NCBI GenBank assembly: GCA_021234155.1 | Contig: JAJEKV010000020.1 | Coordinates: forward strand, 9,983,172-10,047,171 | Direction of reading: 5' to 3' | DNA length: 64,000 bases | DNA from: Isoetes taiwanensis | Lineage: Eukaryota; Streptophyta; Lycopodiopsida; Isoetales; Isoetaceae | Part shown: in pieces, positions 9,590 to 44,649 of the stretch | How the letters are laid out: each line of letters opens with the position of its first letter | Position numbering within the stretch: position 1 is the first letter of the stretch | Translations under genes and position numbers: made by a program | The notes under the pieces: generated by a model | What the model was told of the DNA's origin: nothing | The model's database searches: none | The model's input: the letters and a program-made list of their open reading frames with translations, nothing else

Positions 9590-10877
9590 CGCGAAGTCAT
9601 AAGAAGCATGTCTTGTCTCATGAGGGTTACCGTTTGGCGTGAAACGATTTGCAAGCTGTTGAGTCCTCAAAGTGTTGCACTATCTTTTGCCTTAGCCGCT
9701 TCTGCATTGCCGGTGGCGCCTCATCGTGACCACAGAGTCCGTCACGAGTCTTGCATCACTCCAGAACTAGCCCAGAGCAAAGGGGGCACGGGGGATTAGG
9801 AGGACCGTAGGCTCTTATTTGGAAGTGCCTAATCTCCCTCGGCGCTCTCCTCTCCACCTCCCTGTCCGAGCTTCTTCTTCTCTTGGGTGGCGGCTTGGGG
9901 CCTTGGGCTTTGGTGGTGGCGGCTTCAAAGATGCATTTAGCCGTTGGTGCGCCCTCCCTCGGCGAGAATGCAACCCGTTTTTCTTCATAGTACTTCTTGT
10001 AGGCCTCCCACTTCTTTATATCGCTTTCGTGTTCCCTCATCTTCCTTTCGTATATCTTGACCGAGTGTGACGCATAGGCTTCTACCGGGCAGGTCGTGGC
10101 TGTTTCTTCTGTCCCAAGCCGGTTTTCGAGGGGGCTTACGCGCTTGATCTGTGCAGATTACATTATTTGTTGCTTTCGGGTACTACACGCTTTCGTCACT
10201 TGGGGGTTTAGAAAGCTTCCACCTCGGCATTGGGGTTGAAGTCCCTCGTCCCGGAAAGAGTCGTCGGAGGGTTGGGAGGTTGGTTCGGCTTGCCGCTCTT
10301 TGATAGCGACCTTGGGGTTGGGCTTCCTTCTTGGTGGGGCGTCCTTCGACTTCCTTGGGCTGTCCACAATTTCCCCTTCGCCTTCCTCTTCTCTTGACCA
10401 CCTTATTTCCTCCTCTTCCCTCTTCCTCTTTTTGTTTCCCTCTTCTTCTCGGCGTTCATACTTCACGATGAACCTCATGAGATCTGCTTCCTCTCCTTAG
10501 GCTCAAGTCTCGTTGTGCTCTTGGTGCTCCTTTCTCCTCCTCTCAGATGTGCCCGTCTTCATCTTGGAGGATCTCTGTTCTTTGCATCGAGTGGTCCCTC
10601 GCCCTTTCTTGCTCTCTAATCTCCCTCTCTATTTCCTCGTCGCCTCCCTTGTCTCCTCGTCCATGGAGGTTGGTGATGTGGCCTCATCACGATCCACTGG
10701 CGATTGAAGACATCAATCGAGATCAGATGTATCTTGATCTCTGAGGTGTCTTCCTGCATTTCGGCCCGAGCGACCCCTTTCGCGAGCCTCTCATGAAGCA
10801 TCACCGAATGATGTCGACATCGTGGCGGTGGTTTAGCACAGGCGGCGGCTTCTGGCGATCTGTTTGGTTCGGGCCAT
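9590..10877 (-). pseudogene. Element A histone H3-like ORF (heavily broken)
   Basis: The minus-strand ATG at 10877 opens MARTKQIARSRR, which is the H3 tail ARTKQTARKS with few changes, then a stop after two more residues. The middle (10158-10800) holds Arg/Lys/Glu-rich stretches in several frames (KRKREEEEIRWSREEEGEGE). The C-terminal part (9756-10040) has KKWEAYKKYYEEK, PKPPPKRRR and REIRHFQIR, matching the start of the H3 fold in element B; the rest of the fold (9600-9756) is frameshifted but keeps VTLMRQDM near 9610. It lies between the 5' leader and the unknown ORF, as in B. It cannot make a protein now. Confidence 0.78.
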
Positions 10878-10977
10878 GTTTTCGGTTAGTCAATGGGATA
10901 TCAGCGCCCAAAGATCGCCTAAGTGCGGGAGAGCGGATTTCTAGGGCTGGGATGTGGAAATGAGGGGGGGTCTACGT

Positions 10978-10987
10978 CTATTTATAG
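10978..10987 (-). promoter_or_regulatory. TATA box of element A H3-like ORF
   Basis: CTATAAATAG on the minus strand, 101 bp before the ATG at 10877. It has the same sequence and spacing as the one before the B H3-like ORF. The distance suits a plant TATA box with a 5' leader of about 70 nt. Function is inferred. Confidence 0.65.
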
Positions 10988-11529: not shown

Positions 11530-11542
11530 GCTCACGATACCA
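11530..11542 (-). promoter_or_regulatory. Element A primer-binding site (decayed)
   Basis: The minus strand reads TGGTATCGTGAG right after the LTR end, against the usual TGGTATCAGAGC complementary to initiator tRNA-Met. Element B has the intact form at the same position. Confidence 0.7.
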
Positions 11543-13108
11543 TGTGGCGTCCCCCCTACTGCATACACGATTGCTCTCACCGTATACAAACAGGAGTTCT
11601 TCCCCCATATCAGCTCCACACTGATACAGGGCCCTCCACATATCACTACACCCGTAACGAGTCCCAGTGGAAAGAGTGAAGGTGTCATTCTACCATGTCT
11701 CCCTCAGGGCCTACCTAGCGGCGGAAGCGTAAACATACATGTCAGTATACAACATAATCCTCCAACCACCTAGAAGGGTGGTGCATCAACATCTGCATAG
11801 ACAATGATCAGCATCATACATATGGAAACTCTACCCAAGGCTCAGACTCGGAGGGATGACCGACGGCTTGGGTCTCCAAAGTTCATTGCAGACAGAATTC
11901 ATGGCAATGGATTTGGCTGGCATAAGAACATGGCATAGGGTTGTCCACTCCATCCGCCCCTCCTGTGCACACTTTGCAGAGTAGGCTGAAAAGTGTCGGG
12001 ACCTGACTGTAGCCCGCCGGATGCATAGCCAAAGGGGCTATTCCTGGGTCTCATCCTCCCAGTTCCGTTGGGGCAGGAAGGGATCGCTCCCTCCAGAGAT
12101 CGCAGATGCGACTCAAGGCTGACTAGAGGGCCTTTGCCCGTATGGACGGTGAACCCACCGGAAAGTGTACACCACTTCCGCGGGTGTCGAGCCCATGCCT
12201 TACCCACACTCAGTGGTAAGCCATTAGACCTAGTCACAATGATCCCTGGTAGGCCTTACACACTAGAGGGATCGTTCAAGAGTCAGGGACATGAACCTCC
12301 TTCTTATCGGTCTGCCCCTTCACCCACAACGGTGTGGTTCTTGTACGAGGCCGAATCTCTGATTGTGCTAGAGAGGCTACTCTAGGAGCATCAACTACAA
12401 AGCCTTGGGGCCTCTACCCCCTTCCCAATACAAAGGAGTTCCACAGAGATACATCATCCATATACATCATGAGAAGAACTAAAGAACTAGATCCAATCTA
12501 TATCATAGAGTTAGGTTCTTTAGTTAGTGTCCAGGATCTAGAGATCTAGATAGCTGCTATGGGCAATTTAATAGGCTAAACTTACTCGATTCTATGACTA
12601 GAAGGCGGTTTAAGCTATTAAATTGACCAAATACCGATCCTTGGGTGGCTCCTCCCGACTGAAGTTCAACCATCCTCTTGGTGATCGAATCCGGGGAAAC
12701 TAATGGTGCGATTCGCAGGCGTCACGGAGGCGGTTTTTGGCTCTGGGGCAGCCAAAACCGAGCTCTAAAACCCTATGGACGAAAACTAGCAAGTTAGGGT
12801 TTTCCTACCCTAAATAGACATGGGGTTTAGGGCTAGGGTTTCCAATTACCCATTTTGGCATATGGGATAATTGGAAAGGCCCCACTTGCCTTTAATGGCT
12901 AGGTGGCAAAATGTGCCTACATGGAAAGGTGTGCCCACATGTGCACATTAATAATATATGAACATACCTAGCAAGTTGCCCCTAGGGCTACTTACCTGGC
13001 TATCTGTCGGTGACACGTCGATGGAGGGAGTGGCGTAATGCAGCGTGGCGATCATGATCGGCGATAATCGTTACGGGACCGTTATCTTGTCTTTGGGCGA
13101 ACGTCACA
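11543..13108 (-). repeat. Element A 5' LTR
   Basis: On the plus strand it starts TGTGGCGTCCCC and ends CGTCACA, giving TG...CA ends and a short terminal inverted repeat (TGTGRCG/CGTCACA). Length is about 1566 bp. It aligns with the B LTR 26434-28006 through the block around 11830-12060. The primer-binding site lies on its left, which fixes it as the 5' LTR of a minus-strand element. Confidence 0.85.
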
Positions 13109-13881: not shown

Positions 13882-15384
13882 GAAAAACTGTGTCATCAAT
13901 ATATTAAAAGAATGGTAATGTTACAAAGCAAGTGAGGAGGAAGGAGAACTGCCCCAAAGAGACAGTGATACCTCGACACTCCACAACAAACTCACAGAAA
14001 AACTACAACTCTACTGCGGTACAAACCGACTATCACCATCTACAACACCCAAGAAGTCCTGCCAAATGGCAAACTTCCGCTTTACTACTCCCGGGAACAC
14101 CAGAAAGCTTTGAAATAGCTTGTACCTGAGTCGAGGAATCAGAGAGGCTGCAGGCTGCTGAATCCCCTGAAAGATCCACAACTGCCGCCGCTTCCAAATC
14201 AGCCACTTATTGGTATTTTGAACCTGGTCCATAGCTCAATTCCTGGACATTGATCGAGCAGCAGAACAAAAAGCGTAATTATGTGGGACTTAGTGATAGG
14301 AAAGCAGCTTCTTCCATGACTAATGTTGCCTTGTTGTTATGTGTTGCAAGTAATCCCTTTGCCTCTACAACTTACTGGTATGTTTCACATTGTTGTGCGT
14401 TGACAATTTTTGGATCATCCCATGTCCTTGCAGAGCAATGTAGCAAGATTTATCTCAAATAGAACGCTTCTCCCTCTTGAGGCAATAGTAATTGTATCTT
14501 ACATACAATTGGTTACTAATCCTCCCCCCCACCCTCTCCCCCTCCCCCTGTTCCACATGAGTTCTAGATTCGATTGCCAATGCCGGATTATATGTTGTCA
14601 ATGTGTGTTGTTTGTAATATTGAGTATATGTGAAGGAATCGAACTCGAGATCTAGAGATCGTAAAAAATATCAATCTAACAACGACCTTGTGTTCAGGTG
14701 TGGTAGATGCAGGGGTAGACATTTGACAGCAAGGATACTTATTTGTTACACTATATGCCATTGTTCTCCATGCTGCTTCTATTGCTGATAGATAACGTGT
14801 CCTCAAGTAATCCTATATTTCATTTCTAGGAGGTCGCCTAGCAGTTTGGTTGGATGATGCATGCCCTGGTAGTTGACTTGTGGAATTTTCTCTTTGACCA
14901 TCGATCCTCGAGGAGGATTCTGCGACTGTTTCAGGTTCATTTCTTAACGATGGTATAAAGGTTGAGTGTCTAACTTGGATATTAGCATTGTCAAATCCTT
15001 TATAAATATAACCGTAAAGATATGAGAATACATGGACTGTAGACGTTATGTCTACCATAATGCGACAATCTAACTCATGTAGAAGGAATGCATTGTATGG
15101 AACCACCTATACGTCGTCTATACTCCTCTTCTTATATTGTACGTAACCCTTCGAATCAAGAATGTTGTTGGGTTGATATCCTTCGGGAATTTGTAACAAC
15201 AGGGAGAGCACCTTTATGTGTATTTATGCATCATGAATTTTTGGACTTGTCCTCGAAGGATTGGATCTGTAGGCAATTTAGCAGAGATGATCTCATCTAT
15301 GCATTCAATTGGTATATCAGGTTTTGTACGCAAAACGAGATGGGCATGTGGCAATCCACATTTTTTAAACTCTATGACTGTTTA
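13109..15384 (-). mobile_element. Helitron RepHel remnant
   Basis: Helitrons move by rolling-circle replication using a Rep endonuclease fused to a Pif1-type helicase. On the minus strand: Rep two-His motif region EFKKCGLPHAHLVLRTKPDI (about 15320-15380), then VVPYNAFLLHELDC and YLYGYIYKGFDNA (14960-15110), the Rep-helicase linker TRYLSAIEAAWRTMAY (14750-14806), a decayed P-loop near 13560-13590, and helicase FGGKHFIGAGDFRQV with WQSFRVLKLNNRY (13104-13445). Both ends are cut by gypsy LTRs. Stops are frequent. The termini are not in the window. Confidence 0.85.
13841..14219 (-). mobile_element. 5'-truncated LINE insertion with 16-bp TSD
   Basis: Target duplication CACTTATTGGTATTTT at 13841-13856 and 14204-14219, exact over 16 bp. 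Next to the left copy is a run of about 25 T (to 13881), the poly-A tail of a minus-strand insert. The 3' end reads TTGTAACATTACCATTC, then a TATATTGATGA stretch before the A tail, like plant LINE 3' ends. Only about 350 bp of the element is present. A 73-residue frame in it (14011-14232) may be the end of a reverse-transcriptase ORF, but I cannot confirm that. It sits inside the Helitron. Confidence 0.85.
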
Positions 15385-16510
15385 TGTGACATCCCCTGCT
15401 CATATACGATGCTCGCATCGTACAGAACCGGAGTTCATCCCTCCTGCCAATGCCCTGGCTGACATGAGGCCGTCCACCTAACATCAGATCCTTGCTAACA
15501 GTCAAGAATCCAATGCGGAAGAATGGACGTGTCATTCATCCCGTCTCCGTCGGGACCTACCTAGCTGCGGAAGCACATCAAACATGAGTATATAGCATCA
15601 AATGACATACATATCCACCTCGAAGTGTGGCTCACCATAACATAACATAACATATGTAACAACATCTGTAACATCAACATAAGGGGAATCCTACCCAAGG
15701 CTTCGACTCATGGGGATCGACTGACGGCTTGGGTCTCCAGAAGTCAATGTAGACAGAATTCATGACAAATGGATTGGGCTGACATAAGAACATGGCCGTT
15801 GGGTAGTCCACTCCATCCGCCCCTCCTGTCCATACTTTGCAGAATAGGCTGATAAGTTTTGGGACTCGACCATAGCCTGCCGGGTGCATAGCCAAGGGGG
15901 GTACTCCTGCGTTGCATCTCCCCAGTCCCAATGAGGCCAGAGGAGATCATTCCCTCCAGAGGCATGCATGCCCATCACAGGCGGCAAGAGGGCCACTGCC
16001 CATCTACGACTTGAACCGCATGGAAGGTGACGCATCACCCCAGAGTGTCGAGCCCATGCCTTGCCCACATGCAGTGGCAAACCATCAGGCCTAGCCCGTT
16101 AAGATCTCTGGTAGGCTTTACACACCAGAGGGATCAATCTGCAATGGGACAAGTCCCCCTTATATGCTTGTCTAGTCCCGCCACTCACAGCCAGGCGGGC
16201 TCTTATGCACAGGCTGCGTTAACTGGGAATTAATGAGGCTATCTAGAATCATCTACTACTGAAGGTTTCAGGGCCTCTACCCCCCTTCCCAATACACAAG
16301 AGACCATAGAATGGAACATCATCATCATCATCAAAGAACTAAAATACTGAATAACATCTAATCTATCTACCTAAACATACATGGTTAGGTTCCTTTGTTA
16401 CGGCTGGGGATCTCAGAATCTATAAGGCCTCTAAGGCTGAACTAACATGCTAAACCAGCTCATTGCCGGACTAGAAGTCGGTATTGCACAATAGAATAGG
16501 CACAAACCCT
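15385..16510 (-). repeat. Element B 3' LTR, outer part
   Basis: It starts TGTGACATCCCC at 15385 right inside the Helitron Rep sequence, with GTTTA before it. It aligns with the A and B 5' LTRs over the blocks CTACCCAAGGCT, CCACTCCATCCGCCCCTCCTG and TCTACCCCCCTTCCCAATAC, roughly 75-80% by eye. The alignment stops near 16510, where a second LTR piece begins. No primer-binding site lies to its left, so it is an outer 3' LTR end. Confidence 0.75.
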
Positions 16511-17262
16511 CCCATGCAAACTTTGCAGATAGGCTGAAACATGCTATGGCGCGATTGTAGCCTTCCGGAGACGCAATCCTATGGAATCACCCTATGAGAC
16601 TACTCCACGTTCCCCGGTCCGATGAGGCAGGTCAGAGAGGCGTCCCCTCCCCAGGCATGACGGATCCCTGGGTGTGCTAGAGAACATGTGCCACATCAGT
16701 GACCCCCGCATCTGTACCCGACTTATTCCCTTAAATCTAAAGGCCGGCTCACCGCACCCGTTCGAGTCCAGGACGTCCATATAGGCACGTCGCCTGCAAC
16801 CCAGGGAGTGTCAGACCCATACCTGGCCCATGCTCAATGACCGATTATAAGCCTAGCACACTATAGGAGTCCTGTAGCTAAGCTAGGCAAGACCCCACCT
16901 CGTTTCACCATCATACCCGTTGTCTGATGATAAATCACAACATAGCATCCACAGCCAGGTGGGCTCTTGTGCACAGGCCGCGTATACTGGGTCTTAAGGA
17001 TACTAGCTAGAGACATCTCTACTTCTAGGAAGTTTTCAAGTCTCTACCCTCCCTTATTCCCAGACACACAGGAGAAACAGAAAGAGAGAACACATTTATA
17101 ATCAAAGTATCAATCATTATCTTAGTAACACATAAAAAAAAATAAACCATTCCATCTAATCAGAGAAGGGTTAGCTAAAGCACAGACTGTCTAGGGACTA
17201 ACCGCTCTTGGCTAGAGCCATTTTCGGGAAAGGCTTCCATTCTTCAAGTCTGCATGCAACCC
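16511..17262 (-). repeat. Second LTR fragment, type of element C
   Basis: From CTTTGCAGATAGGCTGAAACATG onward (described, 23 bp matched) the sequence follows element C LTR 45110-45850 (TAGCCTTCCGGAGACGCAATCC, shown here as a block at 16558-16579) to GGCTTCCATTCTTCAAGTCTG. So the LTR next to B pol is a composite of two LTR types. The inner end expected next to pol (GTCACA and polypurine tract) is missing. Confidence 0.7.
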
Positions 17263-17315: not shown

Positions 17316-18690
17316 CTAAACATGAATCGACATGCCTGAGTCGATTGCTTCGGAGATGACCTTGCCGTCCCATTGCTCCATGAACTGCGGGTACTGCCTT
17401 ATCAGGTCCTTCTTAAGTACCCATGTCGCGTCTTCCACCGGCAAGTGTTTCCACTTGACCAAATATTGGAGAAACTCTGATCTCCTTGTTTTCTTGAAGG
17501 CTTTATCAAGAATCAATTCTGGGACTATCTCCAGCTGCTCTTCTGTCATTTCCAACAACGTTGGCGTGTCCCAGACTTCTTCTGGGTTTGGAGTATGCTT
17601 CTTCAACAAACTCACGTGGAAGACTGTATGAATCTTTAGGTGTGCTGGCAGCTCTAACTTGTAGGATTGGTTACCTACTCTCTTGGCAATTCTGAAAGGG
17701 CCAGCCCACCTTGGAGCAAGCTTCTTACAATTTCCGATGCAGAGCTTCGCCTGCTTCACTTTGATCTTGAGCCAGACGTTGTCGCCAACCTGGAACTCTC
17801 GGACCGTTTGATGCTTGTCGGCGACGCTCTTTTGTCGACTTCTTGCTGCAAGAAGATATCCTCGGACTTCTTCTACCAGCTGCTGCATGACGGCCAACAT
17901 TTCCTGCGAAACTTCTACCTTTGACACAGGATTGTGCCAAGTGTCTGGAGTTAGACATTGGTAGCCGTAGTTGATCATGAACGGCGACATCTGGGATGAT
18001 TCCTGCTTGGTGCTATTATAAGCGAACTCAACCAAGTGAATATAATCTTCCCACTTACTCTGCTTGTTCCAGACATAGTTTCTTAGCATATCTTCCAAGA
18101 TTCTGTTGGTCTGTTCTGTTTGTCCATCCGTCTGAGGATGATAGGCCGTGCTCATGGACAACTTTGTCTGAATCGTCGCAAAAAGGTCCTGCCAAAAGGC
18201 ACTCATGAACTTCGGGTCTCTGTCGGAGATGATCTCTCTCGGCATACCATGGAGCCTGAAGATTTCCTTGGTGAAGAGAGCCGTTGTATCTAAGGTTGTG
18301 TCGGTGGTCCTGCAAGGCACAAAGTGTGCCATCTTCGACAACTTGTCGACCACAACCATCAGGACATCTTTTCCTCTTGCTGTCCTCGGGAGCCCTATTA
18401 TGAAGTCCATACTGACAACTTCCCACGTAGCGTTCGACACCGTTAATGGTTCCAATGCCCCTAGAATTCGAAGCTGCTCTGCCTTCGTCTACTGACAGAG
18501 CTGACACTCTTTGATGTAGCGAGCTATCTGCTTCTTCATCCCTAGCCAATAATAACTGTTGCGCACTTTGAAATATGTCTTCATAAATCCTGCATGGCCA
18601 GCTATTGGACTGTTGTGGGTGTCGTGGAGAATCAACTTCCTCACTCCCGATGATTCAGGCACACACAACTTGTTCTTATGGTACAAAAGG
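17316..18690 (-). pseudogene. Element B integrase with chromodomain
   Basis: Integrates the cDNA. In order: H2C2 zinc region (18489-18686; HDTHNSPIAGHAGFM, ECQLC), one in-frame stop, then a 379-residue open frame (17316-18455) with DDE core residues in MDFIIGLP, SDRDPKFMSAFWQDL and ILEDML, a GPF-like region APRWAGPFRIAKRV, and a C-terminal chromodomain YLVKWKHLPVEDATWVLKKD. Chromodomains of this class guide integration toward chromatin with modified H3 in other chromoviruses. This is the best preserved part of the element; only the stop near 18490 breaks it. Confidence 0.93.
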
Positions 18691-19104
18691 TTACCTTCTT
18701 AAAATTCTTGAAGGTCTCCCTCTCCTTATCTGTTCTTGCCTCATTGCACAAGCTCACCCACACTTCCTTGAAGTCTGCATCTGTTGACAAGGTTTCTTCG
18801 ATCTTCTTTCCGAAGTCGAGAGTGAGCGTCAAGATTGCATTGCAGTGAACTCTTATTGTCAGAGGATGCCTTGACAGCGCATCTGCTACCACATTGAGCT
18901 TCCCCGGCTTATAAACTATATCAAAGTCATATTCTTCGAGGAAATCCATCCACCTTTTCGCCTCGGGTTGAGATGTGGTTTGCGTGAACTGCGTATTGGA
19001 GGCTCATGATCCGTGTCCAGCTGGAACTTCCTCCTCACGGTAGTGCCTTCAAATTCTTAGTGCTCGACAAGCGCAAGCAACTCGATCATCATGAGGCAGC
19101 GTTT
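18641..19104 (-). pseudogene. Element B RNase H region
   Basis: Degrades the RNA strand of the RNA-DNA hybrid. FLEEYDFDIVYKPGKLNVVADALSR (18870-18940, shown as the positions of a 25-residue block) is the tether end of Ty3/gypsy RNase H with its conserved ADALSR. The stretch 18950-19104 is frameshifted against element C and known gypsy order. Confidence 0.82.
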
Positions 19105-19872
19105 TTATGGTCGTTCATCTTTTCGAGAGTCATAAGCCACTACTCCGCTCTTCCGCATCAAGCCTTTTTGTGGCAATCTTACTTTGCATCGGTTGCCAAG
19201 TTTGTCCTTCTCACGGGTCTGGCGGGGGTCAAGGCGGTGATTTGTCAAAGCTTCCTTCAACATCTCCGAATCTGCTTGGGCCTTCTTACGCCCGATTGAT
19301 GCGCCCAATCCTTCACTTTTTCCGCCCTCGTCAAATCCGTTAGCGGGGCCGCTATTTTTGCAAAGTTCTTCACGAACTTCCTGTAGTACCTTGCTAGGCC
19401 AAGAAAGCTTCTGACCTCGTGGATGTTCTTGATTGCCGCCTTTGTATATTTGCCGATCTTTGCGGGGATCCGTCGAAATCCCCTCTGCTGAGATCACATG
19501 ACCCATGTACTCTACTCTCCCTGTTACGAAGTGGCACTTCGACAACTTAGCGTACAACTGGTGCCTCCTTAGCTTCTCGAGCACTTTCCTTAGGTGTTGT
19601 ACGTGTTCTTTCAAGGATTTGTTGTACACCAAAATATCATCAAAGAATACTATCATAAAAGTATTCAAAAACTCCCTGAAGATGTCGTTCACGAGCGTCA
19701 TGAATGTTGCTGGGGTGTTTGACAAGCCAAACGGCATTATAATGAACTCGTAATGCCCATACCTGGTCCTGAATGCTGTTTTGTGGACGTCTTCTTCCTT
19801 AATCCTGATCTGATCGTACCCCGACCGCAGGTCTATCTTGGAGAAAACCTTCGCCCCTTGGAGCTGATCCAT
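19105..19872 (-). pseudogene. Element B reverse transcriptase core
   Basis: The palm is visible: [13 protein letters not shown] with the first catalytic Asp, [15 protein letters not shown], and the catalytic motif FFDDILVYN. Next come [18 protein letters not shown] and [10 protein letters not shown] of the RT thumb/connection. The tail after about residue 160 has lost the reading frame of the connection domain. It follows the N-terminal RT part (19877-20110) after a frameshift near 19875. Confidence 0.9.
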
Positions 19873-19876
19873 CAGG

Positions 19877-20866
19877 TCATCCGATCTGGGGAGTGCACTT
19901 CTTCTTGATGGTGTGCTTGTTCAGCTGCATGTAATCTATGCACATCCTCAAGCTGCCATCCTTCTTCTTCACAAAAAGAATGGGTGCCCCAAATGGTGAG
20001 ACGCTAGGTCCAATGAACCCTAGGTCAAGCAACTCCTGCAATTGCTTCTTCAACTCGGTCAGCTCTTGCGTCATCATCCTGTACGGTGCTTTGCTCGTTG
20101 GTTTCGTACCTAGTTCGAGTGCTATCTCACACTCGACTCCCCTGTAAGGAGGAATCTGCTTGATCTCGTCTGGAAAGAGATCATGGAACTCCTTTACCAA
20201 CTTAGCTATCTGCTTTGGCAATTTGCTGAGCACCTTATCTTCCTTGCTTTCTTCTGACTCGGGCTCTTCGATCTGAAGCTTGAAGATATATGCTACCTGC
20301 TCGCTCTTTATGCACTTGAGCAGCCGCTTACTAGACATACACTGCATGATAGGAACAACTTCCTTACCTGTAATTTCTATGCTTTTGCCGTTGGGCGCCG
20401 TGAGGGTCACCTTACGCTTCCCACAGTCAATGACTGCCCCTGCTGGTCCAAGATACTCCATTCCTATTAACAAATCATACTTCGCGATGCTCATCACTTC
20501 TGCCCCCATTTGAATGTTGATCCCTGGCAAGTTGATGTCGAAATTTATCCTCTTGCCTGCCGTGTGTCTCACTGCCCCACTTGCTAACACCACGGGTCTC
20601 GGCTTTGACTTCAGTGGCTTGAGCTTCAACATCTCAACCATTCTTGGAGACGCAAAGTTGTGGGTGCTCCCCGTATCTATCAGGACTATGAAAGACTTGG
20701 TCTTGGCCTTCCCTACTATGGAGATTACTTGATACTGATTTTCTGCTTGGTCTGAATCTATGGCAGCAAAAATGTGACACTCACCCTGAATGAAGTCGCG
20801 TGCTTCCCCGCCGTCGTCGTCAGAGGGAGTCTCCCATCCACCCAACTCTGCCAATGCTGCATTCAT
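19877..20866 (-). pseudogene. Element B aspartic protease and RT N-terminus
   Basis: 329-residue open frame. The protease active site is [16 protein letters not shown] near residue 60, with the flap region [19 protein letters not shown] further on. Residues 260-320 are the RT fingers: [20 protein letters not shown] and [12 protein letters not shown]. The start is chosen where the gag zinc-knuckle frame passes into pol; no initiator is implied because pol is normally translated as part of a polyprotein. Confidence 0.9.
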
Positions 20867-22093
20867 GACAAAAGTGCAGCTTGCTGTTCTGTGGCCTGGT
20901 TGGAAGCATCTGAAGCAGAGCTATTTCTTAATGCACTCCTGCCTCTTCTCCTTAGGCATTGCTTGTAAGAAGGATCGCACCGCTTTCGAATAGTTTGACC
21001 CCTCTTGCTTATCCTTGAAGGATACTTGTTTCTTCTCCTGCTGCTTCCCATAATTGCCACTGTATAGAGTTTTTGCTGGTCCTGGACTAGCTGCTCTAGG
21101 GCTATAACTTCCTGCTGCTTTGCCCTTATCCTGATAGTACTGTTGTTTCTGCCCGCTGTTCTGAGGGCCGGATCTTTGCAGGCTGACTGCTTTTGACTCC
21201 GCTTCTGATACTGTTCGAGGGTTGATTGCTCTTACCAGCTTCTTTATCTCATCGTTTAATCCCTCGATGTACCCTTCCACTACATGGTATTCGCTCAGCT
21301 TCGGCACATAAAGCCTCAGTTTCATGAACTCTTCTGTGTATTTCTGCACTGACTTGTTGCCCTGCTGTAGCCGATAGAATTGCTGCATCATGTGACATTT
21401 GTGCTCCCTTTGCACATGGTGGCGCTTGAATGCCTTTGAGAATTTCTTGAACCTGCAGCTATCTCAGCTCAGTCCATGTGCTTTGGCTTATCCCTTCCAC
21501 CAAATGCGAGTTGCGCCCTTGAGGTTGGCTGTTGCCACCCTGCCTTTGTCTTTGTCCTTCATTCCGTATGCATTCCCATATTCCCTCATCTCGTCCAGCC
21601 AAGCCTCTGCCTCCATGCCTGACCGACTGTCCCCTGAGAACTGTTCAAGCTTCCTTGCCTTCCACATGTTACTCAGCACCGAATCTACTTTCTTCTAGTA
21701 GTCTGAGGTCTTTGTGTCCTTGGGCCTGCCATCTCTACGATCCTGCATCTCTTCCGCCTCTTCCTCGGAATCGGAGTCTGAATCTGAGCTTGTGTTGGAG
21801 GAGTCCGTGCTTGGGGACCTCCTTCTCTTGCTCTTCTTCTTATCCTTTCCCGCCTTTCGAGGTGGTGCTTGCGGTAACTGGATGTTGTCGTCTGGGCCAA
21901 CTCCTGCTTGTGCTGCCAAAAGGGCCTTTATTTCTTGAAGGTCCGATCTCATCTGCGACATCTCCTCTTCGGGAGTCATGGGACCGAATTCTTCGTACAT
22001 GTTCCTTGCAAGGTGTTGTCTGGCCGGAGTCTGTTCATCTCTCTGGACTCGTCGCTCTTGTTTAGTTGTTCCTGGACCTCTAGTTGCATACAC
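20867..22093 (-). pseudogene. Element B gag (broken by frameshift and stops)
   Basis: N-terminal part 21695-22093 with a charged linker of Ser/Asp/Glu repeats; capsid core 21488-21679 (AEAWLDEMREYGNAYGMKDK, TRIWWKG); second part 20921-21415 (YIEGLNDEIKKLVRAINPRT). A CX2CX4HX4C zinc knuckle, [14 protein letters not shown], is at about 20880-20925 and binds RNA. The parts are in different frames or separated by stops at 21694 and 21487. The unknown ORF ends about 170 bp upstream. Confidence 0.88.
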
Positions 22094-22261
22094 AAGTAGA
22101 TCATAGCCTTACGGTTAGCTTCATTTATTTTATTGCATTACATGTGTTTGCTGATATAGTTGTGGAAGCAAAATACATCAACAAAACATTTAAAATGCGA
22201 AACAAAATGTATTTTTATATACAATAGCTTAATTACAATGCTTCCGAGATCAAGAGTCTAA

Positions 22262-23803
22262 CTATTCTTGGAATTGTCGGAAGGATGGGTTGTCCTGAAG
22301 AAACTTCTTAACTTGGGCTGTTCCTACTGTGCGCCCCAAGTTCCTGAGGATATTTGTTGGTGTCCCGCCCTACAAGGCTGTCACCAAGTCTTCTACTCTG
22401 CGGTTGGAGGTGTAGGCCGCAGTCACTGCTAGTCTTCCTTGCCGTCGGTAGGGTACGGCGAAGTCGAAGATGTCAAGTGCCATCGTTCTCTTGACTAGAA
22501 TGACATGGTCAACTGTTGGGATCAGCTGAGCATGCCTACCAAAGCCTGAGAGCGCAATGAGCATGAACGCTCCTTCTTCGCCCCTTGGGCTGAATTTGCG
22601 GTGTATGACCGCTATCCTCCTGTCCATCAGCAGGGGAAGATAATACCTTAGCGACCTATCCCTACCCGTCGTTGTTGATTCGTCGTCCGCTCGGGCACCG
22701 GCTCTATGTCTTCCCACATATTCATCGACGTCAGTCTCTGTAAGTTCTCCGTGGTCTCTGATTGTCGATGTGATTCTCCTCGGGTCGATCTCGCCGCTTC
22801 TATGAACACCTGTGGGAGTTGATATCGAAGAACTTGGCATCAAAATGTTCGTGGTCTTGCCACGGATCCCCATCCGCTCTTGGATGGCATAGAATTCTTC
22901 TTCAGACGACAGATCCCGAGCTTCCATCATTTGCCATATGCTGCTGTACGCCTGGATGTCCGAAGTCGACTCCCCGGTGTAGGTGTCAGCTTCTCTTACA
23001 TGGATCGGGAAGTCGGAAGCCTCCCGGTCGATGAAGTCATCCAGATCTGGTTGTTGCGGCAGAAGGTACAACAACTCATCATGGCGGTACTCCCTGGCTC
23101 TGCATTCGGGGAGGTTCTGGATGTCGCTCAGGAGCAGGTACTCCTGGCCGTTGATGATGATGGGGGCTAGGCTTGTGATACCTAGCCCGAGCGGGGGAGC
23201 GATCCTGAGGGTCTGCCGGTCCTGTTCGAAAGCCGGTATCTCCTGCTCTGCTAGTTGCCGCTCTTGGTCGGGGTCGAGCTCGACGTAGTCTTCATCATCT
23301 GAGTCGAGCGCTTCGTCTTCGGCTCTTCCTTCTTGCTCCACTTGATATTGCAATAGGAGTTAACCCTCTGCTGAAGAGGCTAAGGGGTCTACGTCCATGA
23401 CAGGTATAGAGGGTTCCCCGATTGGGTTCTGGGCACGGTGAGAAAGAAAGATGGCTAGGGCAGCGGTGTAGGAGAAATACTTGGCCCTATTAGCTGTCAT
23501 GACCATGTAATATGGCAACCTAGCAACTTTGTTGTTCAGGTATTTGGCAATGTTGGGGACATCACTCAAGGCTGCTTAGAGGGATTGCTTGGAGACAAAA
23601 TATCCTGTACAAGGGGGAAGCTGTACTAAGGATGGTCCTACTCTAGCTTGGAACTCAGTCATGACTTCCATATAGGATGGGGTTGCCTGCAAAGTGGCTT
23701 GGACATCTATCTCCTTCTGGAAAACCTGGAAAATGGAATTGACATCAGCCTCAGCTACATGTGCATTGGCGCTGTACCATCGCCTGAAGTCTACAGTTGC
23801 CAT
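22262..23803 (-). pseudogene. Element B conserved unknown ORF (513 codons, three in-frame stops)
   Basis: The whole span 23803 to 22262 is one frame, interrupted only by three stop codons (near 23577, 23358 and 22370). N-terminal domain: MATVDFRRWYSANAHVAEAD, then VQLPPCTGYFVSKQSL. Middle: acidic (EALDSDDEDYVELDPDQERQ) and a hydrophobic GQEYLLLSDIQNL block. C-terminal domain: LRYYLPLLMDRRIAVIHRKF, GFGRHAQL, GRLAVTAAYTSNRRVEDL, ending NPSFRQFQE. Homologous ORFs are in A (4250-5784) and more distantly in C (38926-40191). I know no family for it. Its own TATA box and hairpin leader lie upstream. Confidence 0.8.
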
Positions 23804-23914
23804 TGATCTTGAGTGAACTGGACTAACAAACAGCTGTTGAAGCGCCTAAGGGAGTTGGGAAATTGCCTAAAAGTTGGGAGCAAACCTGTAGGATGCTAAG
23901 TGAGAAATGGGGGT

Positions 23915-23924
23915 CTATTTATAG
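23915..23924 (-). promoter_or_regulatory. TATA box of element B unknown ORF
   Basis: CTATAAATAG on the minus strand, followed by ACCC, 112 bp before the ATG at 23803. The same CTATAAATAGACCC stands before the B H3-like ORF. The repeat of both sequence and spacing argues for a real core promoter. Confidence 0.68.
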
Positions 23925-24118
23925 GCAAGGGGAAAACCCTAATTTTTGGGTGACTTGGAAAAATCTTGGGGTTAGGCAAATTTCACCTATTTTGGGGTCA
24001 AAATGAGGATTGGAAAGCTAATTTGAGGGTTTGAGCATGAATAAGACAATCTAATGAACCTATTGCAATAAACTTGAGGTCAATTGGAGGTGGCATGAAA
24101 GAGATATTGCTGGAAGTA

Positions 24119-24181
24119 CTCACGGTGTGCGCTGGAAGGCCGACCTTAAATTTAGGTCGAGGTCCTGGCGCATACCGTGAG
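24119..24181. repeat. Hairpin B-1 (63 bp)
   Basis: Outer arms CTCACGGTGTGCGC and GCGCATACCGTGAG pair with one or two mismatches. The inner part GACCTTAAATTTAGGTC pairs again with a short centre. It is 195 bp upstream of the TATA box of the unknown ORF. Confidence 0.9.
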
Positions 24182-24321
24182 CAATTTGGCTCTAATTGGT
24201 CAAGACTTGTCTAAAAAAGATGAACTAAGGGTCAAAACATAATGGTCTCACCGAGATATGCAAGATTGATCCCTTATTTAGTCGATTTGGAGGTGTTTAG
24301 GACTACTTTTGGTGTGATTTA

Positions 24322-24384
24322 CTCACGGTGTGCGCTGGGAGGCCAACCTAAAATTTAGGTCGGGGTCTTGGCGTATACTGTGAG
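24322..24384. repeat. Hairpin B-2 (63 bp)
   Basis: Same plan and length as B-1: outer arms CTCACGGTGTGCGC and GCGTATACTGTGAG, inner ACCTAAAATTTAGGT. Starts 203 bp from B-1. Confidence 0.88.
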
Positions 24385-24530
24385 CAACTCACTTTTTGGC
24401 CATAAATTGTCCAATTTAACTAAAACAAAAAGCAATTATTGCTAGCTCAACTTAATTAACAAACAATTGTGCACTTATAATTTACTAAAAACAACTTTTT
24501 TATCCACAAAACTTTATTATTTACAAGACT

Positions 24531-25737
24531 TTATCTTTCTCCTTTAATATGGCTAGATAATTGCATGTCTTTAGTCATTAGGGTCACTCTCTTGATATGT
24601 ATGGTGCACGCTGTCGAGTCTTCAAAATGTTGCACCAATTTTTGCTCCGCTGCCTCCTGTAAAGCCAGCAGCATCTCGCCTGTGACCCTCTTGTTCGAGT
24701 CAAACTCCTGTATGACTTCCTTCACCAGCCTGGCGAACGGTGCATGGGGGATGAGAAGACCATAGCCTATCTGAAAGTGCCGGATCTTCCGGATTGCTCG
24801 TGACAGCTTCGATCCGGATTTCCTTGCCATTGGCTTCCTCGGAGGAATGGGCTTCTCAGGAGGTGGCTTGAGGGTCTGCTTCTTTGATGGCAGTCCTCCC
24901 TCAACATAGGTGATCTTGTTCGCCTGGTAGTAGGAGTTGTAAGCCTCCTACTTCTTCATAAATTCTTGGTGTGCCTTCAACTTCTTCTGGTAGACCCTGA
25001 GATGGTCTACCATGTAAGACTCCCGGGCAGGCCGGGGTGGCTTCTTTGCGTCCTTGTCCTTCTCCCATGTTGGGTAAGGCGGGGGCGTCTGTACCTGTTG
25101 ATCCTGCTCTGTCCGCTTTTGGTCTGTTGGCTTGGAGGAGTTCCCACCTTCTTGATAAGGATTGTAATCCTCATCATCTGAGTCGTCGGATGATGTGGGC
25201 TGGTCTGCCGGCCGCTCCTCGATGAAGATCTTTCTTGATGGGGTCTTGCTCATTTTCCTCTTGGGCTCCACCTTGTCTTTGCCCTTGAGTTTCTTCTTCT
25301 CTTCGGCCTCTTTTGCCTCCTTTTCTTCCCTTTTCCTCTTCTTCTTGGCCTTTTTCTTCTCTCGGCGTCGCTCCTTCGCCTCGTGCATTTGAATCCAGGC
25401 CTCGAGCTGTTCTTCTTCGGCTGGCTCGGGAGTGGGCTCCCTCTGCTCCTCCTGTGCCTTGGCCTCCTGTTCCCGTTCCGCCCTTTCTTGTTTCTCCCTT
25501 TCCATTTGGTCGAACACTCTTTGAATTTCGTCATCTTGGTCCAGCTGCTGGTTGATGTCGTTAGCCAGCTTGTCTAGTGATCCGTGCTCGGATCCCTCCT
25601 CCTGTAGCTCCTCTGAAGTGTTTTCTTCATTTGATGGAAGTTCACCTCCCTCTGCGAGAAGTTGCTCCCGAAGCAGCTGCTGTATGCGCCACTTCGCCTG
25701 GTCGATACTTCCAGGCAGTCTGTTTGGTTCGGCCCAT
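24531..25737 (-). pseudogene. Element B histone H3-like ORF (one frameshift, one stop)
   Basis: The ATG at 25737 opens MGRTKQTAWK, the H3 tail with Lys4 kept. A frameshift right after KQ leads into a long linker (25700-24850): IQQLLREQLLAEGG, acidic stretches, then a Lys/Glu-rich coiled tract (AKKKRKREEKEAKEAEEKKK). One TAG (24948-24950) interrupts the same frame, and the C-terminal 99 residues (24531-24830) are a histone fold: [53 protein letters not shown]. Loop 1 has the canonical length, so it is not a CENH3-type insertion. Total about 400 codons against 136 in normal H3. It lies between the 5' leader and the unknown ORF. Confidence 0.88.
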
Positions 25738-25837
25738 GTCTTACTTCACGTCAATCGGAGGTCGGGCGCTCAAAAATTGCCTCGAAATGCGGAGCAAACT
25801 TCTAGACGGGAAGTCTGCAAATGAAAGGGGTTTGGGT

Positions 25838-25847
25838 CTATTTATAG
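25838..25847 (-). promoter_or_regulatory. TATA box of element B H3-like ORF
   Basis: CTATAAATAG followed by ACCC on the minus strand, 101 bp before the ATG at 25737. Identical to the box before the unknown ORF of the same element. Confidence 0.68.
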
Positions 25848-25951
25848 TTTAGGCAAATTTTAGGTCAAATTTCAAGTTACTCATTCTCATGTGTCAAAGC
25901 ACCTATTGACTTAAAAGATGTACTTACTTCAGAGCTTTCTAAGCAATTTTA

Positions 25952-26014
25952 CTCATGGTGTGCGCTAGGGGGTTGATCTAATATTTAGACCAAGGCTCTG
26001 GCGCATACCGTGAG
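25952..26014. repeat. Hairpin B-3 (63 bp)
   Basis: Outer arms CTCATGGTGTGCGC and GCGCATACCGTGAG, inner GATCTAATATTTAGACC. First hairpin upstream of the H3-like ORF promoter. Confidence 0.85.
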
Positions 26015-26163
26015 CAATTTTGCATTCTTGACTAAATTATATGATTTCTAGGCATATTACTAGGGGTGTAATATACAAATCTAACTAATTCTTACCTTAA
26101 AACTCGATCTAACATATTATCTTGTTAAAATTCATCAAGTTTCAAGGTGAATGTGGCCAGTTA

Positions 26164-26226
26164 CTCATGATCTGTGCCTGGGGCTCAACCTAAAATTTAG
26201 TTTGGTGCTCTGGTGCATACCGTGAG
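26164..26226. repeat. Hairpin B-4 (63 bp)
   Basis: Outer arms CTCATGATCTGTGCC and GGTGCATACCGTGAG with mismatches, inner AACCTAAAATTTAGTTT. Starts 212 bp from B-3. Confidence 0.8.
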
Positions 26227-26420
26227 CAATTTCTACATTTGATCCAAATTTAGTTCAACTTTTTAGTTTTCTTAGTTTTCAATTCTTCTAACTATTACTA
26301 GCTTAGCATAACTACAAAAAATGAGAAAACTTTTCCCCACTTTTCGAGGTCTGAGAATTCTACTAAGTTAGTACTACTGGGAGCATGGCCAGTGCTTTGC
26401 TCTTGGTGTCCAAGAACATT

Positions 26421-26432
26421 GCTCTGATACCA
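26421..26432 (-). promoter_or_regulatory. Element B primer-binding site
   Basis: The minus strand reads TGGTATCAGAGC, complementary to the 3' end of plant initiator tRNA-Met, one base from the 5' LTR. Confidence 0.92.
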
Positions 26433-26433: not shown

Positions 26434-28006
26434 TGTGACGTCCCCTACTCATATACGGTGCATTCACCGTATACAAACATGAGTTCATCCCCCATACCAG
26501 CTCCACACTGATATAAGGCCCTCCACATGTCACTGCACCCTTGATGAGTTCCAGTGGGAAGAATGAAGGGGTCATTTTACCCTGTCAGTATACATAGCTG
26601 CGAAAGCGTGAACATACATGTCAGTATACATACATCGATATCACATGACCATCACGAAGGATGGATCACCATATATCTGCATAGACAAAGATCAGCACAT
26701 CACATATGGAGAATCTACCCAAGGCTCAGACTCGAGAGGGATGACTGACGGCTTGGGCCTCTAGAAGTCATTGCAGACAGAATTCATGACAATGGATTTG
26801 GCTGGCAATAGAACGTGGCTTGGGGTAGTCCACTCCATCCGCCCCTCCTGTGCACACTTTGCAGTGTAGGTTGAAAAGTCTTGGGACTTAACTGTAGCCT
26901 GCCGGATGCATAGCCAAAGGGGCTACTCCTGGGTTGCATCTCCCCAGTTCCGTTGGGGCAGGTAGGGATCACTCCCACCAGAGGTTGGCATGCTGTCTCA
27001 AGGTGACTAGAGGGCCACTGCCCGTACTGGACTTGAACTCCATGGAAGGTATCCACCACCCCAAGAGTGTCGAACCCATGCAAAGCCCGCACGCAGTGGC
27101 AGAGCATTAGGTCTAGTGCACTATAGTCCCCGATGGGCTTTACTACCAGAGGGACGTGATCATGAGTCAGGACATGCACCTCCTTGTAAGCCAGTCTAGT
27201 CCCTCCACCCACAACCAGGTTTGGTTCTTGTACATAGGCCGAATTTAATAGTGCATTAAAGAGGGCTAGCTAGGAGCATCAACTACTAGGCTTTAAGGCC
27301 TCTACCCCCCTTCCCAATACAATGAGTCCACAGAAATCACCATCACATACATATCATAGAAGAACTAAAGAATAAGATTTAATCTAATTCACAGAGTTAG
27401 GTTCTTTAGTTATGGCTTGGTATCTAGAGGTCTAGATGGCTGCTATGGGCAAATCAATAGGCTAAACCTACTTACTCTATGTCTGGGAGGCGGTTTAGAC
27501 TATTGAATTGGCAAAATACCTGATCCCTGGCTTGCTCCTCCTGGTCTGAACGCGTCCATGCTGCAGAACTGCTTGAAGATGAAGCTAGGAAGGGAAGCTG
27601 ATGAGCTAGGCTGCTCAGACAGACTTCGTGAGTCAAGATTGGCTATTGGAGCAAGCAAAACAGAGTTCTAGAAGGCTATAATGGACGAAAATGGAAAGTT
27701 AGGGTTTCATATACCTTATATAGACTAAGGGTTACGACTAGGGCTTCCATTAACCCTTGAGCATGTGGGATAATGGGTGTGGCCCACTTGCCTATATTAG
27801 ATAAGTGGCTAAAGTGTACACATGGATAAATGTGTACACATGAATAAATGTGCACATGAATAAATGTGCACACACTTGCAAGTTGCCCCCTAGGGTGCTA
27901 CTTGCTTAGCTACACGTCGGTGTACACGTCAATCGGAATGGCGTGTACACGTGACGAGGCAGTACAGTATACGTCCTGGGACCGTATACTGTGCTGGAAT
28001 GTCACA
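26434..28006 (-). repeat. Element B 5' LTR (1573 bp)
   Basis: Plus-strand ends TGTGACGTCCCC and GGAATGTCACA, so TG...CA with a 6-bp terminal inverted repeat TGTGAC/GTCACA. The primer-binding site on its left fixes polarity. The next five bases are CAAGA, which do not match GTTTA at the other end of B (15380-15384). Near the outer end an internal palindrome-like pair AGTATACG...CGTATACT lies at 27966-27990. Confidence 0.88.
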
Positions 28007-28370: not shown

Positions 28371-28499
28371 GTTGGAGTTGACCGCGTCCTGAATGGTTCG
28401 AGCTTGGCATTCTTACATAAAGTCTGGATAAGCCTTGTCTAAATTCGCTTTAAGAACCCAGGTTGCATCTTCTGTCGGCAAGTGTTTCCACTTAACCAA

Positions 28500-29024: not shown

Positions 29025-29026
29025 TT

Positions 29027-38925: not shown

Positions 38926-40191
38926 TCATGAAAGGAGCTTCATGCTCATCCATGGTGCGATGTCCGCTCCTAGGCGGTCAATCTCATGAGGATCCCGAGC
39001 AGCCACGGACACATATGTGAGCACACAATGTGGGAGCTTCTTATGGCCGGCTAAGGTGAATAACACACGGAGTGCCCACCATGATGCCTCTGCCTCTGGA
39101 GCTAGATCCCACGCCACAAAAAGGACATGTCCCTGCTTAAAAGCTGAAAGGAAGAAGCAGGTAATGTGATTTCCCCGAGCACTAACCTCTGGGATGACAA
39201 AGATGGTTACTTCCTTGTCGAGGTCCATAGTGACCTCCTCTTCCGTAACTTCCCGCTTTTCTTCCTTCAGATGATCTTTGTTGTCATAAAGATTTTCCCC
39301 TTCTTCATCCGACTCTGAGGGAATATCCACCATGTTAATGTTTGGGCCGTGGGGTCCCATAGCAAGAAAAGCTTCTTCAGGTGGCTGTGTCAGGGCCTCT
39401 TGCAACATAAGGTCTCACAGCCTCAAGAGGGTGTCAACTGGCTCAATGGTCTCCTGATGAAATTTAAGCAACTGTTGCACCTCAATAAAGAACTCGGCCA
39501 ATGTAAAATCGATGAAATCATCCATGCAATTCTCCGCGAGCTCATACAATACTCGTGCCTTCCTTTTGGACTTAAGGTCAGCAACAACATGGTAAGTCCA
39601 CATAATATCCTCCAATAGGAGGTATTATTGCCCTTGGTGGTAGATAACCGGGAGGGCATCCAAGCCAGTAAGATGTGCCCCTTGATCTCGGTGTAGGGGC
39701 ATCTGCTCCGCTAACTGTTTCCACCGGGCGACGTCATCCTCTCGGACGTACTCGTCATCTTTTTCGTCTAAAACCGCTGACGCTTTGTCCTTCTTTGCTG
39801 GGAAGGTTTCCTCTTCAACGTACTGATCCATGAGTATAGCCAGAGCAAAGTTTACCTCAAAATATTGCTGGCCCTCATGCATCAGGACGGGTGGGTTCTT
39901 GCCCCATCTAAGTTTTCATGTGAGGATGTTAGAGGCATGAGAACCACCCCCCAACATATCTCTCACAATGGCCCTCTCCAAATAAAGGTGGGGTGGATCC
40001 CCTATGGTGATACAGAGGGGTACTATTTCCTGAGTGTAAAACTCAAGGAAAGCAACATAGTCGGGGTGGGCCTGCGTGTTAGTAATGAGGTCCACCATTT
40101 GGAACAGAAAATGCTGAAGGAGGTCGAATGGGACTTGAGGATCCCAATGTTCTCCATGTTGGTACCATTGGAGAAGGCTAGAGGTATCCAT
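38926..40191 (-). pseudogene. Element C homologue of the unknown ORF
   Basis: Pieces from 40191 down: MDTSSLLQWYQHGEHWDPQ (39916-40191), an acidic part (39625-39882), YLLLEDIMWTYHVVADL in 39415-39615, and 38926-39408 with VTIFVIPEVSARGNHITCFF and LTYVSVAARDPHEIDRL. The pattern of blocks (RW/QWY start, YLLLxDI, a sheet-rich C-terminal domain ending before a DLxxDRL-like motif) follows the B protein in the same order, at low identity. That and its position before gag support homology. Two or three stops break it. Confidence 0.62.
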
Positions 40192-42628: not shown

Positions 42629-44062
42629 TTATATATGTGTAGATAGTCTATACTTACAAAAGAATTTAGGCAATAATTTTTTTTTATATTTATATACAAA
42701 ATTCGTACAACAAAATGCTTGACAAGCAAGCTTAATATGGTCTCCCCGAATTCTCCTGGCAAGAGTCAAGTCCTTGGTCATGATGGTAACCCTCTTGGCA
42801 TGAATAGCACAGATGTTAGCATCCCCAAAAAGTGCTACCAGGTAATCTTCGGTGGCCTCCTGGAGGGCGAGCATAGAAAAGATTTGGAACCGAAGATCAG
42901 TCCGACACTCTTGTGTTATCTCTCGGACGAGGCGCTGGAAGGAAAGCTTCTGTAGCAGAAGCTCTGTTGTCGTCTGATATTTTCGAATCTCTCTCAACGA
43001 CACGGCGGTACTAGGCCTATACCTGTGCGGCTTCTTTGGTTGTGCCGGCTTCTTGGACAGGGTCTTGCCCCATGAGACCGGCCGAGGTCGGGCGGCATCC
43101 ATGCAGTCCTGCCGACGGGCAGAGCTCGTGGCTTTTTCGATGCTCCCAACTGTCTTGAGCTTCTCTTTATAGGCGCTTCCCGACTTATGAGTCGTGGATT
43201 TTCGCCTGTGTTTAACAAGAGGGGTCTTCGTCTGGTCAGGAGCCCGCTGCGTATTCTGCTCTTCGTTTTGTTGGGTCTACTGCCGATCCTCATTCTGCTT
43301 GGCAAGCTCCTCTGCCTGCCCTTGCTATTCGGCCCCTTCTACCTCTTGCTGCGGGGCGTGTGCAACTGCCATGCGCTCTTCCGCCTCTGCGAGGCGACGA
43401 GCAGTAATCCTTTGCAGCAACTCGGCGTGATATCTGTCTGGCCTATCCTGCATATCTAGCTGAAGGGAAATCAAGTGATCCACTGTGAGGTATGATGGGA
43501 CTTCACCTCAGACAAAACTTTGGGTTGCCTCATCATAGTGGTAGGGGGGAAGATCAAAGGGATCCCCCAATATGATGGCGTGGTTGTCTCCCAGGTAGGT
43601 ATATTCCTTACCTCTGGCCCCTGAATCTCTGCTCGCCGATTCTCGAGCGTCGTCACCTCAAGCGAGCCCTATGATCCTTTCGGCCTCTGCCCGGATGGCC
43701 TCATCTTCAGCAACCTCCACATACACGGGAAACTTGACCAGCATCAGGACCTAATCAAGCTATTCTACTAGCATGTAGGGTTGTCCTAGGGCATTAAGTT
43801 TCAGCAAAAAGCGCTCGGACAGATGGAAAATAGGGTAAGGGACCCTATGTCCAGCGATGAACCGTTGTACCAACTCTTCTAGGAGAAGGTCAACCTTTCC
43901 CGAGTCGTCGGCAAGCTGCTCGCCAAGCTCGGCAAAGAGCTGGTGGACGCTGAGGTTACTATAATATACAAAGCCACGGGTATGAGCCATGTTCATTGCG
44001 GTAAGAAAAGGATTTGAAAGGAGGCGCTGGTATGGCAGCTGTGGCAGCGATGAAACACACAA
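42629..44062 (-). pseudogene. Element C histone H3-like ORF (best preserved histone fold)
   Basis: The histone fold (about 42737-43024) is close to canonical H3: [74 protein letters not shown] then RIRG. The frame runs 34 codons past the normal H3 end. Upstream in other frames are basic/Gln-rich linkers (43190-43470) and an N-terminal domain (43760-44062; MAHTRGFVYYSNLSVHQLF). At least two frameshifts and two stops. Position between 5' LTR and unknown ORF matches A and B. A stray host H3 gene is less likely because of the fused upstream region and shared order. Confidence 0.85.
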
Positions 44063-44636: not shown

Positions 44637-44649
44637 TGCTATGATACCA
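44637..44649 (-). promoter_or_regulatory. Element C primer-binding site (decayed)
   Basis: Minus strand ATGGTATCATAG next to the LTR, against TGGTATCAGAGC in B. Confidence 0.65.

Follow-up and report, generated by a model that had tools for sequence, protein, structure and literature searches.

Histone H3-like open reading frames between the 5' LTR and gag of three related Ty3/gypsy retrotransposons in Isoetes taiwanensis

Results

Three related Ty3/gypsy elements (A, B, and C), all on the minus strand within the 64-kb stretch of DNA analyzed here (the window), each carry an H3-like open reading frame (ORF) between the 5' LTR and gag. Comparison of A with B showed that protein-level selection had acted on the frame of these two elements before decay set in, and we consider it very probable that the element-borne H3 gene was once kept by selection. 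The original prediction described one such ORF, in element B; the window holds three (A, ~9590-10877; B; and C, 42737-43996), confirming the observation in B as real and stronger than first reported. A second ORF, ORF2, sits between the H3 ORF and gag, clearly in A and B and as a weak remnant in C.

Layout of the three elements

Element B has protease, integrase, and chromodomain in Ty3/gypsy order together with LTRs and a tRNA primer site, and is thus a chromovirus. Element A extends from its 5' LTR to the window start, with the rest beyond the window edge. Element C gave Pfam matches for protease, RT, and RNase H, and its pol is split by a copia element. The chromodomain was seen in B only, since that of A falls outside the window and that of C is cut by the copia element. 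The main landmarks are as follows.

11542..13051, minus strand: 5' LTR of A, identified by sequence match to the B LTR
26434..27957, minus strand, outer limit approximate: 5' LTR of B, 78% identical to the A LTR and ending directly before the primer-binding site
26421..26432, minus strand: primer-binding site of B, TGGTATCAGAGC, exact match, presumably of the initiator Met tRNA type
44655..45857, minus strand, approximate: 5' LTR of C, 87% identical to 16507-17259 and 66% to the B LTR
44638..44649, minus strand: primer-binding site of C, one mismatch, assigned by position, as the count is at chance level
17316..22108, minus strand: B gag and pol, split over several disrupted ORFs that encode protease, integrase, and chromodomain, with Pfam matches RVP_2, rve, SH3_Tf2-1, and Chromo
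15384..17259, minus strand: composite LTR on the 3' flank of B, with a B-type part (15384-16510, 72% to the B 5' LTR) joined to a C-type part (16507-17259, 87% to the C LTR)

The primer-site pattern occurs in the window at chance level (6 matches versus 5.3 expected), and the evidence for these sites is their position adjoining an LTR; the site in A is degenerate. The B-type part of the composite LTR is less like the B 5' LTR (72%) than the A LTR is (78%), suggesting that the 3' end of B may derive from another element. A Ty1/copia element (28498-34054, LTRs ~95% identical) is apparently inserted in the pol of C: on its flanks, B pol 17371-17462 matches 28408-28499 and B pol 17518-19183 matches 34115-35774. 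Other observations in the window include ~3.1 kb of A (5890-8990) for which no counterpart was found in B, a foldback in A at 8509-8962 (133-nt arms, 96% complementary), and a tandem direct repeat at 63298-63825 with a spacing of ~201 bp. An Rfam search returned zero matches.

The H3-like ORF of element B

The ORF in B is composed of a short H3-like tail, a long linker, and a histone fold.

24531-25745, minus strand: whole H3-like feature (tail, linker, and fold)
25708..25737, minus strand: N-terminal tail MGRTKQTAWK, with its ATG at 25737; the counterpart in A is MARTKQIAR
24948..25745, minus strand: linker ORF, acidic then Lys/Glu-rich, terminated by TAG, homologous to the A linker
24531..24947, minus strand: C-terminal part with the H3 histone fold (fold proper, 24534-24797), matched by Pfam Histone and PDB H3.3

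The original prediction had placed the tail and the fold in the interval between 5' LTR and gag, on the same strand, broken by one frameshift and one stop and separated by a linker of ~270 residues, and each of these points held. The profile search that it proposed matched the fold to Pfam Histone with an E value of 1.8e-22 (80.3 bits; cut-off, 26.4), and a PDB search matched it to H3.3 (E value of 4.3e-22). Of the 88 fold residues compared with animal H3, 44 were identical. The tail frame is offset by one base from that of the charged linker, and a TAG at 24948-24950 splits linker from fold. The only candidates for an intron joining tail to linker were GT..AG stretches of 31-52 nt. The same +1 shift between tail and linker frames occurs in A (10877-10751) and B (25737-25623). 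The "frameshift" of B may therefore be an ancestral feature, the two elements may share a recoding signal, or their agreement may be a one-in-three coincidence.

Neither A nor B has the full ARTKQTARKSTGGKAPRKQ... tail of canonical or replacement H3; instead, ~8 to 10 tail residues are followed by the linker. Because nearly all of the tail beyond about residue 10 is replaced, the usual K14, K27, and K36 positions would be absent. Within the fold, B retains D106, C110, H113, D123, and L126, which we take to be H3-H3 contact residues, and R49, R69, R83, and R116, which we take to contact DNA; R63 is lost and R72 is changed to K. Such conservation would allow the fold to pair with H4, to contact another H3, and to bind DNA. 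AlphaFold modeled this fold poorly (mean pLDDT of 54.2), too low for a fold search. A scan of viral contigs with the B fold found one locus, L001, where 27 residues matched within an ORF that appeared unrelated by eye; we took this match as chance.

Elements A and C carry H3-like ORFs at the matching place

9590..10877, minus strand: decayed H3-like ORF of A, with tail MARTKQIAR at 10877, linker, and a fold remnant near 9600-9860; identified by the tail and by tblastn with B
42737..43996, minus strand: ORF of C, interrupted by six in-frame stops, with an unknown N-terminal part followed by a linker and then the H3 fold at 42740-43036 (Pfam Histone E value of 6.4e-35)

The original prediction was to stand or fall with the presence of an H3-like ORF in other copies, and A and C each have one at the matching place. 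In A, tblastn with B gave an E value of 5.7e-28 across linker and fold, in pieces with stops, and the two elements have the same layout and 56% DNA identity across the H3 ORF. The A piece 9756-10157 alone had no Pfam Histone match, and A is recognized only through its tail and tblastn with B. The fold of C was matched more strongly (120.5 bits; cut-off, 26.4), is 72% identical to plant H3, and lies in a frame of 420 codons. For both the B and the C folds, the best PDB match was H3. Given the E values of B and C and the recurrence at matching places, chance is excluded as an explanation of the H3 identity.

The N-terminal part of C differs from the A/B tail and likewise does not comprise the full ARTKQTARKSTGGKAPRKQ tail. 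Its similarity to ORF2 was no better than that of shuffles (187 of 300 reached the score), nor was that of the C linker to the B linker (83 of 300). In all three elements, the start codon of the H3 ORF is found at a comparable depth, 684 nt (B) and 642 nt (C) from the primer site and 665 nt from the LTR end in A. None of the three copies retains an intact H3 ORF: B has the TAG and the frame change, A has many lesions, and C has its six stops.

ORF2, a conserved neighbor of the H3-like ORF

22277..23803, minus strand: ORF2 of B, conserved, with in-frame stops and third-position bias; 48% identity to protein P0044 over its length (tblastn, 3.7e-146)
4265..5784, minus strand: ORF2 of A, found by tblastn with P0044; 66% identity to B ORF2 in the aligned part
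39001..39717, minus strand: weak ORF2 remnant of C, found by tblastn with P0044 (E value of 0.044)

Strongly conserved between A and B, ORF2 nevertheless had a single protein relative at E values up to 0.001 among the best 7995 candidates scored. This relative, P0044, is a stop-free 501-amino-acid frame on a 2007-base contig. There was no convincing Pfam match to ORF2, nothing was found in the viral contig scan, and its AlphaFold model (pLDDT of 35.8) was too low for a fold search.

Putative internal promoters and inverted repeats flank the H3-like ORF

25836..25847, minus strand: TATA box CTATAAATAGAC, 99 nt upstream of the B H3 ATG
10976..10987, minus strand: TATA box before the A H3-like ORF, same 12-mer
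23913..23924, minus strand: second internal TATA box of B, before ORF2, same 12-mer
25940..26240, minus strand: two ~70-nt inverted repeats upstream of the putative B H3 promoter, one strong (25940-26026, z of -6.4) and one not above shuffles (26150-26240, z of -0.2)
24108..24394, minus strand: two ~70-nt inverted repeats between the B H3 ORF and the putative ORF2 promoter (z of -6.4 each)

The 12-mer CTATAAATAGAC occurs exactly three times, at 10976 before the H3 ORF of A and in B before the H3 ORF and, at 23913, before ORF2. TATA-like matches with up to two mismatches were not significantly enriched (8 versus 5.6 expected), and the evidence for these boxes is their position and exactness. 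In B, the putative H3 and ORF2 promoter regions are related, judging from an alignment score of 55 that none of 500 shuffles reached (best shuffle, 37). For A H3 versus B ORF2 the result was borderline (score of 36, reached by 2 of 500 shuffles). In C, candidate TATAAA boxes occur at 44238 and 44215, upstream of the ATG.

In both A (9152-9436 and 11088-11346) and B (24108-24394 and 25940-26240), ~70-nt inverted repeats lie in pairs on either side of the H3 ORF, one pair upstream of its putative promoter and one between it and ORF2. Their sequences differ between A and B, and the pairing is largely kept: standard pairs make up 90.7% of pair cells across the eight repeat copies, and 24 two-sided changes were counted versus at most 7 with the partner slid. 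None of 500 column shuffles reached either the share of standard pairs or the number of two-sided changes; two-sided changes affected nine pairs, a number that 25 of 500 shuffles reached. Repeats of one element are related to one another (~77-97% to B1 or A1), and the pairing-change counts are therefore of non-independent events. Folding was weak in three of the eight repeats (B4, z of -0.2; A2, -2.5; A4, -3.9) and ranged from -6.4 to -8.0 in the others.

Evidence for past protein-level selection on the H3 frame of A and B

We aligned A with B and counted differences by codon position in the frame of B, using one pair of copies and limits set by ourselves; three gap settings yielded one identical alignment and hence amount to one test. 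In the main count, which left out alignment stretches below 50% identity, the H3 ORF differed at 57/205, 61/205, and 94/196 first, second, and third positions, respectively (p=3.4e-6), a change rate of 0.48 at third positions versus 0.28 and 0.30 at first and second. The excess also held for the initial part of the linker (p=0.005) and for the fold (p=0.01) taken individually, as well as with no columns dropped (156/391, 155/391, and 214/390; p=7e-7), and at a 60% threshold (19/97, 23/104, and 44/99; p=3e-5). ORF2, gag, protease-RT, and integrase showed the same bias (p from 1e-6 to 3e-20), whereas the LTR and leader controls showed no third-position excess between A and B (p=0.67 each). The presence of the excess in the H3 ORF and its absence from LTR and leader indicate that the H3 frame was once under selection as protein.

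At third positions, the H3 ORF has diverged about as far (0.48) as gag and ORF2 (0.43-0.48), suggesting that the H3 gene has been in the element for about as long. At first and second positions, H3 changed more (0.28-0.30) than did ORF2 (0.15-0.22), gag (0.12-0.19), and pol (0.05-0.13), pointing to looser constraint or to an earlier decay of the H3 gene; the selection signal was weaker on H3 than on ORF2, gag, integrase, and RT.

These data bear on two alternative explanations. H3 genes are multi-copy, and unrelated host H3 pseudogenes could in principle have been inserted by chance in each element. We disfavor this explanation as highly improbable: A and B share the linker, the tail start, and the TATA box, the third-position divergence of their H3 ORFs approaches that of gag and ORF2, and C carries its H3 at the matching place. 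The ORF might instead be a passenger, a host H3 copy picked up and copied along that never mattered. All three copies are broken, fragments of genes are common cargo of transposable elements, and in Pseudocercospora and relatives the H3 copies amplified by hAT elements are reported as inactivated (PMC6710886). However, a passenger would not be expected to show a third-position excess in linker and fold that is missing from LTR and leader, a matching location in the deeply diverged C, or a built-in putative promoter, and we regard this explanation as unlikely.

Relatives of the H3-like fold

A protein search with the B ORF returned 42 proteins at E values up to 0.001 among 6315 candidates, 12 of which we inspected. 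Coverage was 20-33% of the query in 40 of the 42, 52% in one, and not given for one; in effect, the fold alone was matched. The C ORF gave at least 3080 matches among the best 7942 scored candidates, mostly ordinary H3. The original prediction had proposed a tree with H3.1, H3.3, and CENH3. Our tree of fold sequences had 25 rows: 19 of the 42 B-ORF matches, chosen by us, B and C, and four typed rows (rows P0007 and P0017 carried extra sequence). In this tree, C was nearest to plant H3.3/H3.1, grouping with canonical H3 at a support of only 59/84, whereas B, with a branch length of 1.78, was left unplaced. The AU test did not reject B with C (p=0.27), B with Adiantum (p=0.46), B with C and Adiantum (p=0.23), or B with the CENH3-like rows (p=0.41), so that the tree favors none of these origins. 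Because the C linker resembles the B linker no more than shuffles do and the tree does not join B with C, the H3-like ORFs may stem from one capture or from two.

The Adiantum row is a 240-amino-acid H3-like protein of Adiantum nelumboides (P0005), which has a long non-canonical N terminus and the APFARLVKE motif, as in B, and is 48% identical to the B fold versus 67% to plant H3. This fern protein, with its H3 fold and long N terminus, may itself be element borne.

Could the captured gene have been a centromeric H3 (CENH3) that steered the element to centromeres? B has the residues LIPxAPF and IRHFQ, which we take to be CENH3-like, and its grouping with three plant CENH3-like rows was among those that the AU test did not reject. 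However, the loop 1 extension present in P0020 and P0024, two Brassicaceae rows that are presumably CENH3-like and are listed by their sources as unnamed products, is missing from both B and C (alignment A3); C is closest to plant H3.3/H3.1; and A and B keep a canonical N-terminal start. A centromeric origin is therefore improbable. We infer that an ancestor of A, B, and C took up a host H3, which was then retained as an accessory gene driven by a separate internal promoter.

The chromodomain of element B

The original prediction connected the H3-like protein to the binding of modified H3 tails by chromovirus integrase chromodomains. B does have a chromodomain (Pfam Chromo, in 17316-18488). 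However, by eye, of the three aromatic cage positions Y24, W45, and Y48, taken from an HP1 chromodomain sequence that we assume as reference, only W45 is kept, with no aromatic at the other two, and the domain is thus outside group I, the readers of methylated H3. This residue pattern is that of the plant group II type. Group II chromodomains are reported solely from plant Gypsy elements (PMC3350952), and no interacting partner is reported to have been identified for them (PMC3350952, PMC6317226). With two of the three methyl-lysine cage residues absent and a group for which no partner is identified, the link between the H3-like protein and the integrase chromodomain is weak. The plant group II chromoviruses, Galadriel-like, resemble B in gag-pol-chromodomain order and, in a comparison of the chromo box by eye with the description in PMC3350952, in a YLVKWK motif without Y24 and Y48 (PMC3350952, PMC6317226). 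The excerpted descriptions name neither an H3 nor an ORF2 and report other extra ORFs in some lineages (PMC3350952, PMC6317226); A and B, unlike the elements so described, have two extra ORFs upstream of gag.

The features of element B also bear on a structural function, in which the histone fold would serve the element's own particle or integration complex, wrapping or condensing cDNA or tethering the complex to chromatin through the tail. The charged linker and the conserved fold are consistent with such a function. The clearly H3-like tail is limited to residues 1-8 or so, the part of H3 bound by many H3 readers, and a further targeting part would be useful to an element whose chromodomain lacks two cage aromatics. 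In contrast, the H3 ORF apparently stands apart from gag-pol and has a TATA box to itself. We regard this function as possible, nearly as likely as a role against silencing.

Discussion

Hosts silence retrotransposons by marking the H3 wrapped around them. We tentatively favor, at somewhat below even probability, the interpretation that a captured H3, retained as an accessory gene, becomes part of nucleosomes or H3-H4 complexes and blunts host silencing. By this mechanism, an ancestor of the elements would have captured a host H3 and retained it under an internal promoter of its own. The H3-like protein would then pair with H4 and enter nucleosomes or H3-H4 complexes, which we infer and consider the least certain step. 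Nucleosomes of this kind would be without the usual K14, K27, and K36 positions. Acting as a dominant-negative or decoy H3, the protein would dilute silencing marks on the element and thereby blunt silencing by the host. The complete scenario, in which a plant LTR retrotransposon lineage captured H3, remodeled its tail, and long kept it as a separately promoted anti-silencing histone that could not be marked normally, is a doubtful though possible one.

Histone genes on mobile DNA have precedents. The excerpted reports describe hAT DNA transposons that carry H3-like genes in Pyrenophora tritici-repentis (PMC3538342) and in Pseudocercospora and relatives (PMC6710886). H3L of Pyrenophora is likewise an H3-like gene of unknown function amplified by a transposable element; it belongs to a fungal DNA transposon with near-identical recent copies and some expression evidence (PMC3538342), whereas the elements described here are LTR retrotransposons, older, with a long linker and evidence of past selection. 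In Pseudocercospora, an intronless H3 is also carried through the genome by an element, in that case a DNA transposon whose amplified H3 copies are reported as inactivated by RIP (PMC6710886). Bracovirus histone H4 is likewise a core histone on a mobile genome (PMC5423620, PMC9145170), and its N-terminal tail is reported to alter host expression after it joins host nucleosomes (PMC5423620). It differs in being an H4, from an insect polydnavirus, with a function that has been tested.

The original prediction knew of no retrotransposon with a captured H3. Among the matches listed in the open-licence PMC literature without preprints, judged by titles and the starts of abstracts, no H3 encoded by an LTR retrotransposon was found. 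The strings "retrotransposon" and "retrovir" are absent from the viral-histone review PMC9145170, and in the excerpts of PMC6317226 the single use of the word histone concerns chromodomains. With H3 capture already published in hAT DNA transposons, novelty can be claimed for retrotransposons only.

If the favored interpretation is true, an element with its own H3 attacks silencing at its substrate and provides a natural test of which tail residues are needed for silencing. Odd plant H3 genes also call for care in annotation, as some may be transposon genes. Core histones have been described from DNA viruses and hAT DNA transposons, and a selected retrotransposon H3 would extend them to the most abundant elements of plants.
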